The position numbers were made by a program, and so were the translations under genes. Source: Methylophilus sp. 5 (GTDB lineage Bacteria; Pseudomonadota; Gammaproteobacteria; Burkholderiales; Methylophilaceae). From it: a stretch of 64,000 nt of DNA. The notes under the pieces are model-generated. The model was not told the DNA's origin. It searched no databases and saw only the letters and a program-made list of their open reading frames with translations. Where the stretch lies: assembly GCF_000515275.1 (NCBI RefSeq), contig NZ_KI911560.1, positions 744,001-808,000 on the forward strand. Direction: 5' to 3'. Shown here piece by piece: positions 7,183 through 39,571 of the stretch. The first letter of the stretch is position 1. Each line of letters starts with the position of its first letter.

Positions 7183-7218
7183 AGAGTTTATTCATCATTG
7201 CTTTGTTTATTTTTTAAA

Positions 7219-7233
7219 TGATAACAATTATCA
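7219..7233. promoter_or_regulatory. Fur box, near-perfect
   Basis: TGATAACAATTATCA matches 13 of 14 defined positions of the Fur 7-1-7 consensus and is extended by AAA/TTT on both sides. The same 15-mer recurs at 29707. It lies upstream of the 62-aa gene at 6994-7182 on the minus strand. Confidence 0.9.
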
Positions 7234-7443
7234 TTTAGTTTTTCAATAAAAAATCAGTAAAAACAACAGGGTAAAGAAATATTTACACTTGGAAAAAAAA
7301 GATAACAAGAAATGTAAGATGCACGATGCCCGCCCCAGACAATGATTGGCGGGGAAAAACGCAGTAAAAGCAGGAGAGAATTAGAGAGGAAACAACATCA
7401 GGCCGACGCAGAAATGTTTATCTGCGCCGGCAAAGCCTAACAG

Positions 7444-29638: not shown

Positions 29639-29706
29639 GAGGCTCCCCTGTCAATAAACTGCTGGCTACAGGAGGCTTTTCTCGTTGGCTTGCACTAAGC
29701 CATAAA

Positions 29707-29721
29707 TGATAACAATTATCA
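29707..29721. promoter_or_regulatory. Fur box, near-perfect
   Basis: TGATAACAATTATCA is identical to the site at 7219 and matches 13 of 14 Fur consensus positions. It lies 69 bases before the FhuE/FpvA-like receptor start. Confidence 0.9.
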
Positions 29722-29783
29722 TTCAATACATCAAGAGGACGAGCCAAGCTAGCTGGCTCTCACCATGTAAAATGGTGCTAACC

Positions 29784-34212: not shown

Positions 34213-34320
34213 GTCACTTCTCCTAAGTTCATGATGCAAGCCACTGCGCATTGTTTTTTTGTTTACACAGCGCTTGCTGAAACCGTGACTATTCATCACG
34301 GCAATTAATGATATTCTATA

Positions 34321-34335
34321 TGATAATCATTCTTA
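34321..34335. promoter_or_regulatory. Fur box before hutZ-hmuSTUV
   Basis: TGATAATCATTCTTA matches 12 of 14 Fur consensus positions. It lies about 109 bases upstream of the hutZ GTG, consistent with iron-controlled transcription of the heme operon. Confidence 0.8.
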
Positions 34336-34436
34336 TTTACATAAAAAGATTTGATCTATCTGGTGTTGTAAGCAAAAAACAGGGGTGTAAAAAAGAAAAT
34401 TGCGCGATGAACCTAGGCGTTTATCGCCCGGCACGA

Positions 34437-35846: not shown

Positions 35847-36266
35847 TTACGGTTGCGGCTGGCTAACAAAACCCACTTTTTTCATGCCCGCGGTCTGCGC
35901 CTTTGCCAGCACCTCGGCCAACACCTGATAACGCGTGTTTTTGTCGGCACGAATCTGCAACTCAGGCTGCTGCTGCTTGGCCGCCTCATCTGCCATGCGC
36001 GCAGACAAATCAGTCACTTGAATTTCGCTATCGTTCCAGAAGATTTTGCCATCCACATCGACCGCCAGGTCGATCACTTCCGGCTTTTCTTCCAGCGGTT
36101 GCGACGTCGCCTGCGGCAAATCAATTTTGACTGCGTGCGTCAGCAATGGCGCCGTGATAATAAAAATCACCAATAGCACCAGCATCACATCCACCAACGG
36201 CGTGGTGTTGATTTCACTCATGGGCTGAGTGTGCTCACCCGCACTGAATGGATTTTGCCCCATCAT
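35847..36266 (-). CDS. exbD: Biopolymer transport protein ExbD
   Basis: A 139-aa protein with one N-terminal membrane helix. The functional aspartate is in NTTPLVDVMLVLLVIFIITAP; the periplasmic domain ends with AGMKKVGFVSQP. It converts the proton gradient into motion of TonB with ExbB. The gene overlaps exbB by 4 bases. Confidence 0.95.
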   Translation of the reverse strand: MMGQNPFSAGEHTQPMSEINTTPLVDVMLVLLVIFIITAPLLTHAVKIDLPQATSQPLEEKPEVIDLAVDVDGKIFWNDSEIQVTDLSARMADEAAKQQQPELQIRADKNTRYQVLAEVLAKAQTAGMKKVGFVSQPQP

Positions 36267-37006
36267 ACATTGCCACCTTTATTGGCTACTTTCACATGCA
36301 GCTCGGTCACATTGGCTGGCTTGCCGTTGGTTTTTATCACCAATGGCGCACCGGTGGTGAGCAGGGTATGCAAATCTTGCGCAAAACTTTCCAACTCGGC
36401 CATGATGCCGCGATTGGCTTTAATAAAAGCGTTATAAGCCAGCACGGCAGGAATCGCTACCGCCAGACCAATCGCCGTCATAATTAACGCCTCACCCACC
36501 GGGCCGGCCACTTTATCAATAGTGGCAACGCCAGATTGGCTAATGGCGCTCAATGCGTGGTAAATACCCCACACCGTACCGAACAAACCAACAAAAGGCG
36601 CCACGCTACCCACAGAAGCCAGCACAGATAAACCGCTCTCTAATGCGGCTTGCTCTTGCGACAAGGTACGACGCAACTGGCGCGCAATAAACTCATCCTG
36701 GCTGCAAGCCGCGCCTAATGACTGGCTGGCATATTGCTGGTGATGCTGGGTCGACTCGGCTGCCGTCACTGCCAGGCGAAACGCCGGCGATTGCAACTGC
36801 GGCTCTTGCAGCGCTTCTTGCAACGTGGCCTTACGCCAGAACTGACGCACATAAGAAGACACATCACGCTTGCGTTTAAATACTTGCCAGGTTTTAACCA
36901 GAATAAAATACCAGCTCAACACTGACATCGTTAGTAAAATCAGCGCCACCAAAACCGACACCACACCGCCTTCGGTGATAAAAGCCAAACCACTTGTTGA
37001 TTGCAT
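36263..37006 (-). CDS. exbB: Biopolymer transport protein ExbB (MotA/TolQ/ExbB family)
   Basis: A 247-aa inner-membrane proton-channel protein with three helices: VVSVLVALILLTMSVLSWYFILVKTW, GSVAPFVGLFGTVWGIYHAL and EALIMTAIGLAVAIPAVLAYNAF, each with the conserved family features. It forms the motor with ExbD and TonB for all TonB-dependent receptors in the window. Confidence 0.95.
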   Translation of the reverse strand: MQSTSGLAFITEGGVVSVLVALILLTMSVLSWYFILVKTWQVFKRKRDVSSYVRQFWRKATLQEALQEPQLQSPAFRLAVTAAESTQHHQQYASQSLGAACSQDEFIARQLRRTLSQEQAALESGLSVLASVGSVAPFVGLFGTVWGIYHALSAISQSGVATIDKVAGPVGEALIMTAIGLAVAIPAVLAYNAFIKANRGIMAELESFAQDLHTLLTTGAPLVIKTNGKPANVTELHVKVANKGGNV

Positions 37007-37051: not shown

Positions 37052-37918
37052 TTAATTTTGCGTGAGCGAGAATGACAAAGGCACATTGACATAAGCACTC
37101 AATGCCTTGCCACCTTTGCGCGCAGGCTCAAAACGCCATTGCTTCACCGCCGTCACCGCAGCTTTGTCCAATCGCTCAAAGCCACTACTTTTGATCACAT
37201 CCACTGACTCTGGCAGCCCTTCAACAGACACCAGCACCTTCATCAGCACCTTGCCCTCTTCACCGGCACGGTGCGAGAGTCTCGGGTATTCAGGCCGCGG
37301 ATTATTCAGGTAAGCTACACCAAATTTTGGCGGCTCTTCTTTTTCTTCAACCACCTCTTGCTTGGGTGGCGCTGAGACCACTGGCGCAGGCTTGCTGGCG
37401 GCAGCTGCAGGCGCCTCTAACGGCGGCGCAGAGGCCTGTGTACTGGCTTCAAACCGCGGCTGGTCTGGCGCAGCTTCTACAATGCGCTCAACCACAGGCA
37501 CCGGGCGCTCTATCGGCTTCACCGGTGTGTCTTTAGGCTTGATCACTGGTTTAACCACGGGTTGTTTTTTGATGATAGGCACCACTTCAGGCGCAAGTGC
37601 CTCTTCTTTTTTGGCTGGCAAAGTGATTAACGAAACCGTCATCGGCTCAGGCTTGGGCAATTCAATGACCGGCGCCTGATGCAGCACCAGCCAGGCAATG
37701 ACGGCCGCATGCAAGGCAACCACCAGCAACATACCCAAACCATGCCAATCCTGGCGCTTATCACGCTGCAACCAATCTTCAGTGGCCAGGACAGACCAGC
37801 GAAAAATACCCGCCAACTCACCCAGCTGGCGACGATGCAGGCTCAGCTCAGGCAGTTGTGGCGCTGACGCGCGCGCGGGCTTTAATGACAACCCTTGCAA
37901 AGACTCACGTTGCACCAT
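37052..37918 (-). CDS. tonB: Energy transducer TonB
   Basis: A 288-aa protein with a cytoplasmic N-terminal extension of about 70 residues, one membrane helix (LGMLLVVALHAAVIAWLVL), a Pro/Lys/Glu-rich spacer (VVKPVIKPKDTPVKPIERPVP) and a C-terminal TonB domain (PEYPRLSHRAGEEGKVLMKVLV to AVKQWRFEPARKGGK). AGAGGAG lies 7 bases before ATG 37918, so I prefer it to a start 27 bases upstream. The long cytoplasmic N terminus is larger than in E. coli TonB. Confidence 0.93.
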   Translation of the reverse strand: MVQRESLQGLSLKPARASAPQLPELSLHRRQLGELAGIFRWSVLATEDWLQRDKRQDWHGLGMLLVVALHAAVIAWLVLHQAPVIELPKPEPMTVSLITLPAKKEEALAPEVVPIIKKQPVVKPVIKPKDTPVKPIERPVPVVERIVEAAPDQPRFEASTQASAPPLEAPAAAASKPAPVVSAPPKQEVVEEKEEPPKFGVAYLNNPRPEYPRLSHRAGEEGKVLMKVLVSVEGLPESVDVIKSSGFERLDKAAVTAVKQWRFEPARKGGKALSAYVNVPLSFSLTQN

Positions 37919-37998
37919 GTGCAGACTCCTCTGGTAAAACCACAAAAGGCAACCCTAGGTTGCCAGCATTACACACACATTTCACGCAAAAACCTCGA

Positions 37999-38223
37999 TT
38001 AATCTTGTTGCACCAATGCTGCTGCCATGATCGCATGGCACTTGGTCAACAGTAATTTATTTTGCTTGGTACGGGTCAACTGATACGTGTCGCCGCCATG
38101 CACAATCGCCAATATTCCAGCGTCACCCAGCAATTGCTTCGCCTCAATCGTCGGCATGCGTCCCAATGAAACACTGGCCGCATTTTGCGCCTCACCTAAT
38201 GATGATGGCAAGCGATTAGTCAT
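37999..38223 (-). CDS. hemP: Hemin uptake protein HemP
   Basis: A 74-aa protein whose second half (EAKQLLGDAGILAIVHGGDTYQLTRTKQNKLLLTK) is the HemP domain. HemP/HmuP is a small cytoplasmic protein needed for expression or use of heme uptake genes in several Proteobacteria, where it acts as a heme-linked activator. It lies between the S4 paralogue and tonB on the same strand. Confidence 0.92.
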   Translation of the reverse strand: MTNRLPSSLGEAQNAASVSLGRMPTIEAKQLLGDAGILAIVHGGDTYQLTRTKQNKLLLTKCHAIMAAALVQQD

Positions 38224-38336
38224 GCTTTAACATCCAGTCTAAAAAAAGGCCGACTTATATGCAAAAGCATTGCGGCAATAGGATTTCAAGGAACACCCTT
38301 ACCAGGGATAGGTTGGCGCATAAACATCACGCCGAA

Positions 38337-38376
38337 TTTGAGCAATGACATGTTGGGGTTAGGAGCATTGCTCAAA
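38337..38376. other. 11-bp perfect stem-loop between the S4 paralogue and hemP
   Basis: TTTGAGCAATG (38337-38347) pairs exactly with CATTGCTCAAA (38366-38376) across an 18-base loop. There is no T-run on the minus strand, so it is more likely a processing or regulatory RNA structure in the 194-base gap of the operon than a terminator. Confidence 0.5.
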
Positions 38377-38417
38377 TGCTTTAGCGACCCGACACCAGCG
38401 GCGCCTGGCCAGCGAAA

Positions 38418-39035
38418 TTAAACGCGGTTAGAGTAATACTCAACCACTTGTTGCACATCAACCGGAAACGGCACATCTTCAATTGAAGGCAAGTGTCCGA
38501 CTTTTACTGAAGCAGAGGTTTTTTCAACCGCCAACCACTCCGGTACAGTCAGGCTAGGGGTTGCAATCGCATCAACCACCATCGGAATCTTGCGGCTTTT
38601 TTCTTTCACCGCCACCACATCACCCACTTGCAAACGAATAGATGCAATGTTGGCTGATTTGCCGTTAAGCAATACATGGCCATGACTCACCAGTTGACGT
38701 GCAGCAATGCCAGTCGGCGCAAAACCGGCTCTGAACACCACGTTATCCAAACGGCGCTCCAGCAAAGACATCAATTTTTCACCCGTCGGCTCGCTGCCTT
38801 TACGCGCTTCGAGGATCAAACGACGCATCTGCTTTTCGCTCACACCGTAGTTAAAACGAATCTTTTGTTTTTCTACCAGCTTGACTGCAAAGTCAGAGCG
38901 ACGGCGACGTGATGCCTGCTGCCCATGCTGACCTGGTGGGTTAGGACGATTTTCAATCGACTTACGTGACAATCCGGGCAGTTCAACGCCCAATGCGCGC
39001 ATAATCTTCAGTCTGGGTCCTGTGGTTCTTGCCAT
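38418..39035 (-). CDS. rpsD: Stand-alone 30S ribosomal protein S4 paralogue
   Basis: A 205-aa S4-family protein: N-terminal part MARTTGPRLKIMRALG, the conserved PPGQHG, and the S4 RNA-binding domain (LLERRLDNVVFRAGFAPTGIAARQLVSHGHVLLNGK). It contains no cysteine. It is not in the alpha ribosomal-protein operon (no rpsK or rpoA nearby) but among iron genes, 62 bases after a Fur-controlled 107-aa gene. The normal rpsD is expected elsewhere in the genome. This looks like an alternative S4 used in iron starvation, or one adapted to another RNA, but that is inference. Confidence 0.88.
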   Translation of the reverse strand: MARTTGPRLKIMRALGVELPGLSRKSIENRPNPPGQHGQQASRRRRSDFAVKLVEKQKIRFNYGVSEKQMRRLILEARKGSEPTGEKLMSLLERRLDNVVFRAGFAPTGIAARQLVSHGHVLLNGKSANIASIRLQVGDVVAVKEKSRKIPMVVDAIATPSLTVPEWLAVEKTSASVKVGHLPSIEDVPFPVDVQQVVEYYSNRV

Positions 39036-39097
39036 GAATCTATAGCCTTTCTTGGTTTATCTTTATTACTACTTTTTAATATGTTGCCGCGAGCGCA

Positions 39098-39421
39098 TTA
39101 CTGTAACGTAGTCGAATGCGGCACAAAATCGGTCACTGCCTGCTGCAGTGCAAACTCCTGATGCGCCTGCAACAAGGCCTGCCAATCCTGCAACAACTGC
39201 TTCGCAGCAGATTCAATCAAGCCACTTTCTGCATACTCGGGTGCGGTCAGCGTTTGCGCCAGACTGCACCCTAATAAAGCCAGATCCTCAGAAGGATTCA
39301 CCGCATAACGAGTGGCCACACAACTGAGCGACACCAACACCGCACTCGCTGTTGGCAAGTCGGGATCAAACAAATTGCTGGCTGGCGCGGCGTAATCAAC
39401 TTGCATTGCAATGACTTTCAT
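39098..39421 (-). CDS. Unknown 107-aa protein heading the S4/hemP/tonB operon
   Basis: A cytoplasmic protein with an alanine/leucine-rich helical second half (AAKQLLQDWQALLQAHQEFALQQAVTDF) and no signal peptide. I do not recognise the family. The Fur box at 39438-39452, only 17 bases before the ATG, and the direct continuation into the S4 paralogue gene indicate iron-repressed expression. The ribosome binding sequence is weak for both the ATG at 39421 and that at 39406. Confidence 0.65.
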   Translation of the reverse strand: MKVIAMQVDYAAPASNLFDPDLPTASAVLVSLSCVATRYAVNPSEDLALLGCSLAQTLTAPEYAESGLIESAAKQLLQDWQALLQAHQEFALQQAVTDFVPHSTTLQ

Positions 39422-39437
39422 TTAATCGTTATGCAAA

Positions 39438-39452
39438 TGATAATGTTTCTCA
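39438..39452. promoter_or_regulatory. Fur box before the 107-aa gene/S4 paralogue operon
   Basis: TGATAATGTTTCTCA matches 12 of 14 Fur consensus positions, with further AAA/TTT extension on both sides. It is 17 bases from the start codon of the gene ending at 39098. Confidence 0.82.
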
Positions 39453-39571
39453 TTTATGATGTCAACTATTGTTTGCAATTGCCCTCAACACAGCGCCACC
39501 AATGCTGCGCACCCCCTGTGGCAAACACCCAACATCACGGACAGATAGCCGCGCCAGATTGATCGACAATC

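Follow-up and report, generated by a model that had tools for sequence, protein, structure and literature searches.

Ribosomal protein S4 is a universal protein, shared by all domains of life, and Chen, Roberts and Luthey-Schulten described C+ and C- types of it in 2009 (PMC3087516). The sections of that paper on which we draw define the subtype C-(IV) by the absence of the zinc cysteines, the absence of a seven-residue indel and the residues L/F15 and G/P21; they list it in Nitrosomonas europaea, which has a C+ gene as well, and in Methylobacillus flagellatus, which has no other type, its C+ gene having been lost. The same sections report no Zur site for the S4 paralogues and leave their regulation open. 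Here we study a gene of this type in the methanol-consuming bacterium Methylophilus sp. 5, in a stretch of 64,000 nucleotides (contig NZ_KI911560.1, positions 744,001 to 808,000; 'the window'), where a cysteine-free S4 stands behind a predicted Fur box, between a small gene that we call u107 and the genes hemP, tonB, exbB and exbD (Table 1). An initial annotation, made from the letters of the window, had proposed a cysteine-free S4 paralogue under Fur and not under Zur, and the comparison of genomes below supports this prediction.

The window S4 is the same type of protein as the C-(IV) S4 of the 2009 account and likewise lies outside the alpha operon. Unlike that account, the locus has a Fur box and a u107-S4-hemP-tonB operon, and relatives lose the Fur box alongside the C+ gene, none of which is named in the sections of PMC3087516 used here; the words iron and TonB are absent from its text. 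As with the Zur-controlled C- paralogues (such as L31, L33, S14, S18 and L28), we see a zinc-free reserve copy behind what is predicted to be a metal-sensing repressor of the Fur family, with the difference that the box is a Fur box and the partners are genes for iron and haem uptake. The HemP/HmuP/ChuP haem-uptake operons share with the window a hemP gene in a Fur-controlled uptake operon (predicted control in our case), whereas chuPRSTUV, in the part of its description considered here (PMC9131926), has no ribosomal protein gene. A second zinc-free S4 that is not expressed in normal growth, as we propose for the window copy, is also described in Clostridia, where the paralogues differ in being of another subtype, C-(V), and in being raised during sporulation (PMC3087516, same sections). 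In the open-access full-text literature we found no report that an S4 paralogue is controlled by Fur, and the words ribosomal and rpsD are absent from the portion considered of a paper on N. europaea Fur (PMC3050691). The feature is real and conserved: a known S4 subtype under predicted metal control, a combination unreported for S4 paralogues in the searchable open-access literature.

The window S4 is full-length and contains no cysteine. It exceeds the cut-off of the NCBIfam model rpsD_bact (TIGR01017; 226.8 bits, cut-off 177.2) over residues 3-202 and those of two Pfam S4 models, the best S4 chain in the PDB covers residues 1-202, and the alignment places it in C-(IV), with zinc cysteines and seven-residue indel absent and with L15 and G21. 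The host genome, of which the window is part, is complete (3,033,021 bp) and has a second rpsD in the alpha operon (G000:C1:1673468; order rpsM-rpsK-rpsD-rpoA) with the full zinc motif CxxC...CxxxxC, or C9xxC12...C26xxxxC31 in the numbering style of PMC3087516. The claim of the initial annotation that a complete S4 without cysteine is encoded outside the alpha operon is thus borne out, and the second rpsD that it expected in the alpha operon is present and of the zinc type, so that the window gene is not the only rpsD here. Four zinc cysteines are found in all nine alpha-operon S4 genes that we read in the family Methylophilaceae (G000, G102, G017, G011 and five further genomes), and in 8/8 of the canonical S4 genes found in ten other Burkholderiales genomes; in one genome (G120) the canonical S4 is a 43-residue fragment, which may reflect the end of a contig. 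For the spare S4, the ratio of non-synonymous to synonymous substitution rates (dN/dS) is 0.03-0.06 in the five closest same-genus comparisons (a sixth gives 0.09 with saturated dS, and another was non-computable), which shows, at the level of codons, that this copy is under purifying selection.

The predicted Fur box is a 21-base palindrome that overlaps the -10 element of the putative u107 promoter. The 3.03-Mb genome has 12 places that match the Fur palindrome within three mismatches, and the reversed control has none. Nine of the 11 other places could be assigned to a gene by reading open reading frames (ORFs), not by profile: five precede FecI/FecR-like pairs, two TonB-receptor-like genes, one a HutZ-like gene and one a second u107-like gene. 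The genome encodes a strong Fur-family match and, separately, a Zur-like protein.

How far this arrangement is conserved can be read from 150 genomes of the family, of which 54 hold 55 copies of the window-type S4 (E below 1e-80), all scored over the 700 bp upstream. We divide these genomes by whether a second S4 match is present (two-S4; cysteines were read in G000, G102, G017 and G011 of these) or not (sole-S4). In two-S4 genomes, 45 of 46 copies have a Fur site of at least 16/21 and 45 of 46 have u107 ahead of S4; in sole-S4 genomes the corresponding counts are 0/9 and 0/9 (eight genomes, one with two identical copies). As background, among 680 control windows (600 bp, both strands), a set that includes the window's own iron genes and in which some overlap in kinship, 13 reach 16/21, and the best Fur scores at 24 alpha-operon loci are 12-15. 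The first 50 residues are free of cysteine in all 55 copies, two of which have a cysteine elsewhere. On this comparison, the predicted Fur control of u107-S4-hemP is well supported. That the box might serve ilvB instead of S4 was ruled out, since the box stays with u107-S4 where tblastn found no ilvB. At some Methylotenera loci (L023 to L030, L134) the box lies 615-716 bp before S4 and is separated from u107 by about 200 bp or more. A different second S4, which we take to be alphaproteobacteria-like and set aside as another acquisition, is present in four genomes of genus g16; in the one that was read (L051:5505-7125(-)) it adjoins a pseudoazurin-like gene.

We propose that the window gene encodes an alternative S4 (uS4) that is held behind a Fur-repressed promoter and swapped in during iron starvation, a reading that we think rather probable. 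When iron is replete, Fe-Fur would occupy the -10 region and the 30S subunit would be built with the alpha-operon S4, which binds zinc. In iron-poor cells Fur would leave, and u107, the zinc-free S4 and HemP would be made, with TonB-ExbBD downstream; the spare S4 would then be built into new 30S subunits instead of the zinc type. The likely benefit would be an S4 without a metal-binding thiol cluster while iron homeostasis is disturbed, be it by sparing zinc, by avoiding mis-metallation or thiol damage, or perhaps by altered decoding accuracy, and this benefit is the weakest step of the proposed mechanism. Fur repression, induction at low iron, incorporation into ribosomes and benefit are what we infer from the sequences. 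Ribosomal paralogues switched by a metal are known in the case of zinc and Zur; if the proposal is true, Fur control of a core 30S protein would mean that iron, too, signals what the ribosome is made of, and would answer, for Methylophilaceae, the question of how C- S4 paralogues are regulated that the 2009 paper raises in the sections used here (PMC3087516). The family is a natural test set, with sister genera that have both S4 genes, the spare only or the canonical only.

The swap could also take place for a reason other than iron. In a zinc economy read through Fur, shortages of iron and zinc would coincide, or TonB-dependent import would be shared, and the zinc-free copy would relieve the demand for zinc. 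This would sit well with the coexistence of a zinc-free paralogue and a zinc-type S4 in the counts above, and with the Zur control of other C- paralogues (PMC3087516, same sections). Yet the operon site scores 19/21 against the Fur palindrome and 14 against a Zur-type consensus, no site within three mismatches of that consensus occurs anywhere in the genome, and this is so even though a Zur-like protein is encoded. We therefore regard zinc as an unlikely reason for the swap, and keep iron starvation as the preferred signal in what follows.

The layout of the operon is as the initial annotation had it, with an ORF of 107 residues before S4 and hemP, tonB, exbB and exbD after it. The full order on the minus strand is u107, S4, hemP, tonB, exbB, exbD, a PepSY protein, a 69-residue ORF and a HutZ-like gene. 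The putative promoter upstream of u107 is the better of two promoter-like matches in 4.2 kb, and there is no promoter-like match in the u107-S4 interval; the first terminator-like hairpin on the same strand comes after hemP. Neither kind of match is more frequent than chance in the scanned region (two promoter-like matches against a mean of 2.9 in shuffles, and seven terminator-like matches against 5.8), and hence promoter and terminator rest on their position, the promoter also on the conserved box. Since the hairpin stands between hemP and tonB, we predict a transcript that covers u107, S4 and hemP and that may extend into tonB by read-through. The gap between S4 and hemP folds, as a whole, no better than its shuffles (z -1.08).

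Table 1. Features of the u107-S4-hemP-tonB-exbBD locus in window coordinates.
Feature	Position	Strand	Basis
Fur box AAATGATAATGTTTCTCATTT (minus strand: AAATGAGAAACATTATCATTT)	39435..39455	.	19/21 to palindrome
Sigma-70-like promoter TTGACA-17-TATCAT, Fur box overlapping	39437..39465	-	11/12 positions
u107, small protein, three predicted helices	39098..39421	-	ORF, 107 residues; likely start 39406
Cysteine-free ribosomal protein S4 paralogue, C-(IV) type	38418..39035	-	ORF of 205 residues, model matches, alignment, dN/dS
12-bp perfect inverted repeat between S4 and hemP	38336..38377	-	sequence
hemP, HemP/HmuP family haem/iron uptake regulator	37999..38223	-	Pfam hemP 46.2 bits, cut-off 25
Terminator-like hairpin between hemP and tonB	37948..37964	-	terminator scan; number of such matches not above shuffles
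tonB	37052..37945	-	family match
exbB	36263..37006	-	family match
exbD	35847..36266	-	family match

Now we consider the genomes in which the window type is the only S4. With the canonical S4 as query, no C+ gene was found in eight genomes (G001, G010, G016, G030, G043, G053, G062 and G071). The alpha operon was read in seven of these (all but G071), and there rpsM-rpsK-rpoA are contiguous and rpsD is absent; missing sequence as the cause was ruled out, the eight genomes being 92-100% complete and the seven operons being read through. The sole S4 proteins are 66-69% identical to the window S4. A tree of 89 S4 proteins, rooted at the midpoint, places them in one clade (99/97 support) nested in a group (99/88) whose family members outside the clade have the Fur box. 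Because the eight genomes form one nested clade, we count a single event and not eight. With relatives serving as the only S4, it is well supported, as far as gene content can tell, that the window type is competent as a ribosomal S4, and the idea of the initial annotation that the paralogue can replace the normal S4 gains support from these lineages.

At the sole-S4 loci a TATAAT lies 179-231 bp before S4, and in seven of eight the gene that precedes is htpG-like (recognised by eye). The leader, measured to the start codon, is 176-228 nt long (L033:5805-6003(+), L036:6613-6811(-) and six other sole-S4 loci). Changes on both sides occur in three of the four helices of the leader (6 of 25 pairs), with 98.5% of cells paired; the covariation score was reached by 0/500 shuffles, which do not keep the relatedness of the sequences, of which only eight exist, and slid versions reach at most 44.7% paired. 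A profile of the leader matched only sole-S4 genomes among the DNA examined, Rfam gave no match at the gathering score in 11 loci, eight of them sole-S4, and a permissive Rfam search of two loci gave no match inside the leader. The leader of these Methylobacillus-type genomes is a candidate S4 autoregulatory element. A Fur site of 17/21 is retained ahead of tonB at seven of the eight loci, 731-805 bp past the start of S4; in the eighth (G001) the Fur score is 15/21 and the locus has no tonB match. Taken as a whole, the account would be that iron starvation remodels the small subunit through a Fur-switched uS4, a core protein for assembly and accuracy, and that the branch of Methylobacillus gave up this switch: it lost the canonical rpsD, came to express the spare constitutively, and exchanged the Fur box for a new structured leader, perhaps one for autoregulation by S4. 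We see this fuller account as evenly poised. The branch would then be a case of a conditional paralogue taking over an essential role as its repressor site disappeared and a structured leader arose.

Outside the family, a survey of the order (399 genomes) found this S4 in 17 genomes at E 1e-50 or better, ten of them not Methylophilaceae. From a scan of named genomes the best 80 loci were kept, and 34 betaproteobacterial and gammaproteobacterial loci outside the family, chosen to cover the groups, were tested for Fur-like sites. Such a site is found at p<=0.01 in 15 of the 34, including three Zoogloea-type loci, two of Methyloversatilis, Denitromonas, one of three of Azonexus hydrophilus, Azoarcus and N. 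europaea; in Myxococcota and Poribacteria loci it is found in 0/6. Among 46 named genomes searched, 38 have two S4 genes and eight have one, several of the 46 being metagenome-assembled genomes (MAGs). The hemP gene follows S4 in a Dechloromonas MAG and in Azonexus and precedes it in Uliginosibacterium, so that the S4 copies beside hemP for which the initial annotation suggested looking in other Betaproteobacteria do occur. In the S4 tree N. europaea and two MAGs nest beside the Methylophilaceae genus g15, and u107 is also present in N. europaea and in one of those two MAGs, which suggests horizontal transfer of the u107-S4 pair, probable in the N. europaea case. At the N. europaea locus (L146:4673-5618(+)) u107 and S4 stand together, and neither hemP nor tonB is matched within 5 kb.

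The company of hemP raises the question of whether the paralogue works on the ribosome at all. S4 is an mRNA-binding repressor, and the spare copy might be an extraribosomal regulator that, perhaps jointly with HemP, binds an mRNA or a small RNA from iron metabolism. The initial annotation had likewise named RNA binding in iron control as a possible role. The two genes adjoin in Methylophilaceae, Azonexaceae and Uliginosibacterium, and HemP/ChuP has itself been modelled as a post-transcriptional regulator (PMC9131926, in the part considered here). Such a role is hard to square with a match to the ribosomal S4 model over nearly the whole length of the protein, or with relatives that are the sole S4 of their cells and hence mark this type of protein as ribosome-competent; we judge it improbable, and continue with the iron-starvation swap.

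Several observations weigh against that swap. At 19 of the 34 tested loci outside the family there is no Fur-like site at p<=0.01. Loss of the Fur box together with the canonical S4 is one event, and therefore the contrast of 45/46 and 0/9 does not amount to many independent tests. Two genomes depart from the pattern: G011, with two S4 genes, lacks both Fur box and u107 and has a different small ORF before its S4, and a Methylotenera MAG from outside the sample (PB2.3.53, L134) has a Fur site of 20/21 and u107 with no canonical S4 found, in an assembly that may be incomplete. The TATAAT of the sole-S4 loci is accompanied by only a 3-4/6 match to a -35 element. Codon adaptation is 0.62-0.74 for the sole S4 (seven genes), 0.53-0.64 for the spare S4 (four) and 0.70-0.74 for the canonical S4 (four); as evidence of takeover we rejected it as non-specific, since exbB, at 0.59-0.70 in the six sole-S4 genomes measured, is about as high as S4 in four of the six. 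Finally, the window S4 lacks a close match in 96 of the 150 family genomes, so that its function is dispensable. This last count, like the transfer suggested by the S4 tree, is also what one would expect if a horizontally acquired C-(IV) S4 of little function had come to stand in an iron operon by chance. A mere bystander would be a very improbable object, though, of the constraint seen in the five closest same-genus comparisons, of a u107-S4 order kept with the Fur box in nearly every two-S4 copy, and of a takeover as sole S4 in one clade.

The partner gene u107 matches no Pfam or NCBIfam family, and its AlphaFold model (three helices; predicted local distance difference test score, pLDDT, 72.8) has no PDB match below E 1. 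Its likely start is taken from comparison with relatives. A profile search found u107 in three of 300 genomes of the order, all three members of Methylophilaceae. Profile comparisons with the small S4-adjacent proteins of Azonexaceae (four sequences) and with one such protein from another family were non-significant. With a 17-sequence set picked by hand and by eye, hmmsearch gave E 1.3e-6 and 19.2 bits for the best of 18 targets, and 14.8 bits for the window u107, where the best of 900 shuffles reached 8.9 bits, but hhalign gave a probability of only 5.7%; since the set was hand-picked, we rate homology of u107 to the Azonexaceae proteins as no more than likely.

The genome of Methylophilus sp. 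5 has the second u107-like gene between two other small ORFs (L116:1275-2038; C1:1844416), behind a near-perfect Fur box with one mismatch (C1:1844144, L215). By eye, one of these two ORFs is similar to the small gene that precedes S4 in G011 (L042) and in a Methylophaga MAG (L158). After the Zur-like gene comes a DksA-like gene (L234:1465-2487(+)), perhaps a zinc-free DksA2, with what we take to be fewer zinc cysteines than in E. coli DksA. The window itself holds three further Fur-box matches, at 7216-7236, at 29704-29724, before a TonB-receptor-like gene, and at 34318-34338, before a HutZ-like gene.
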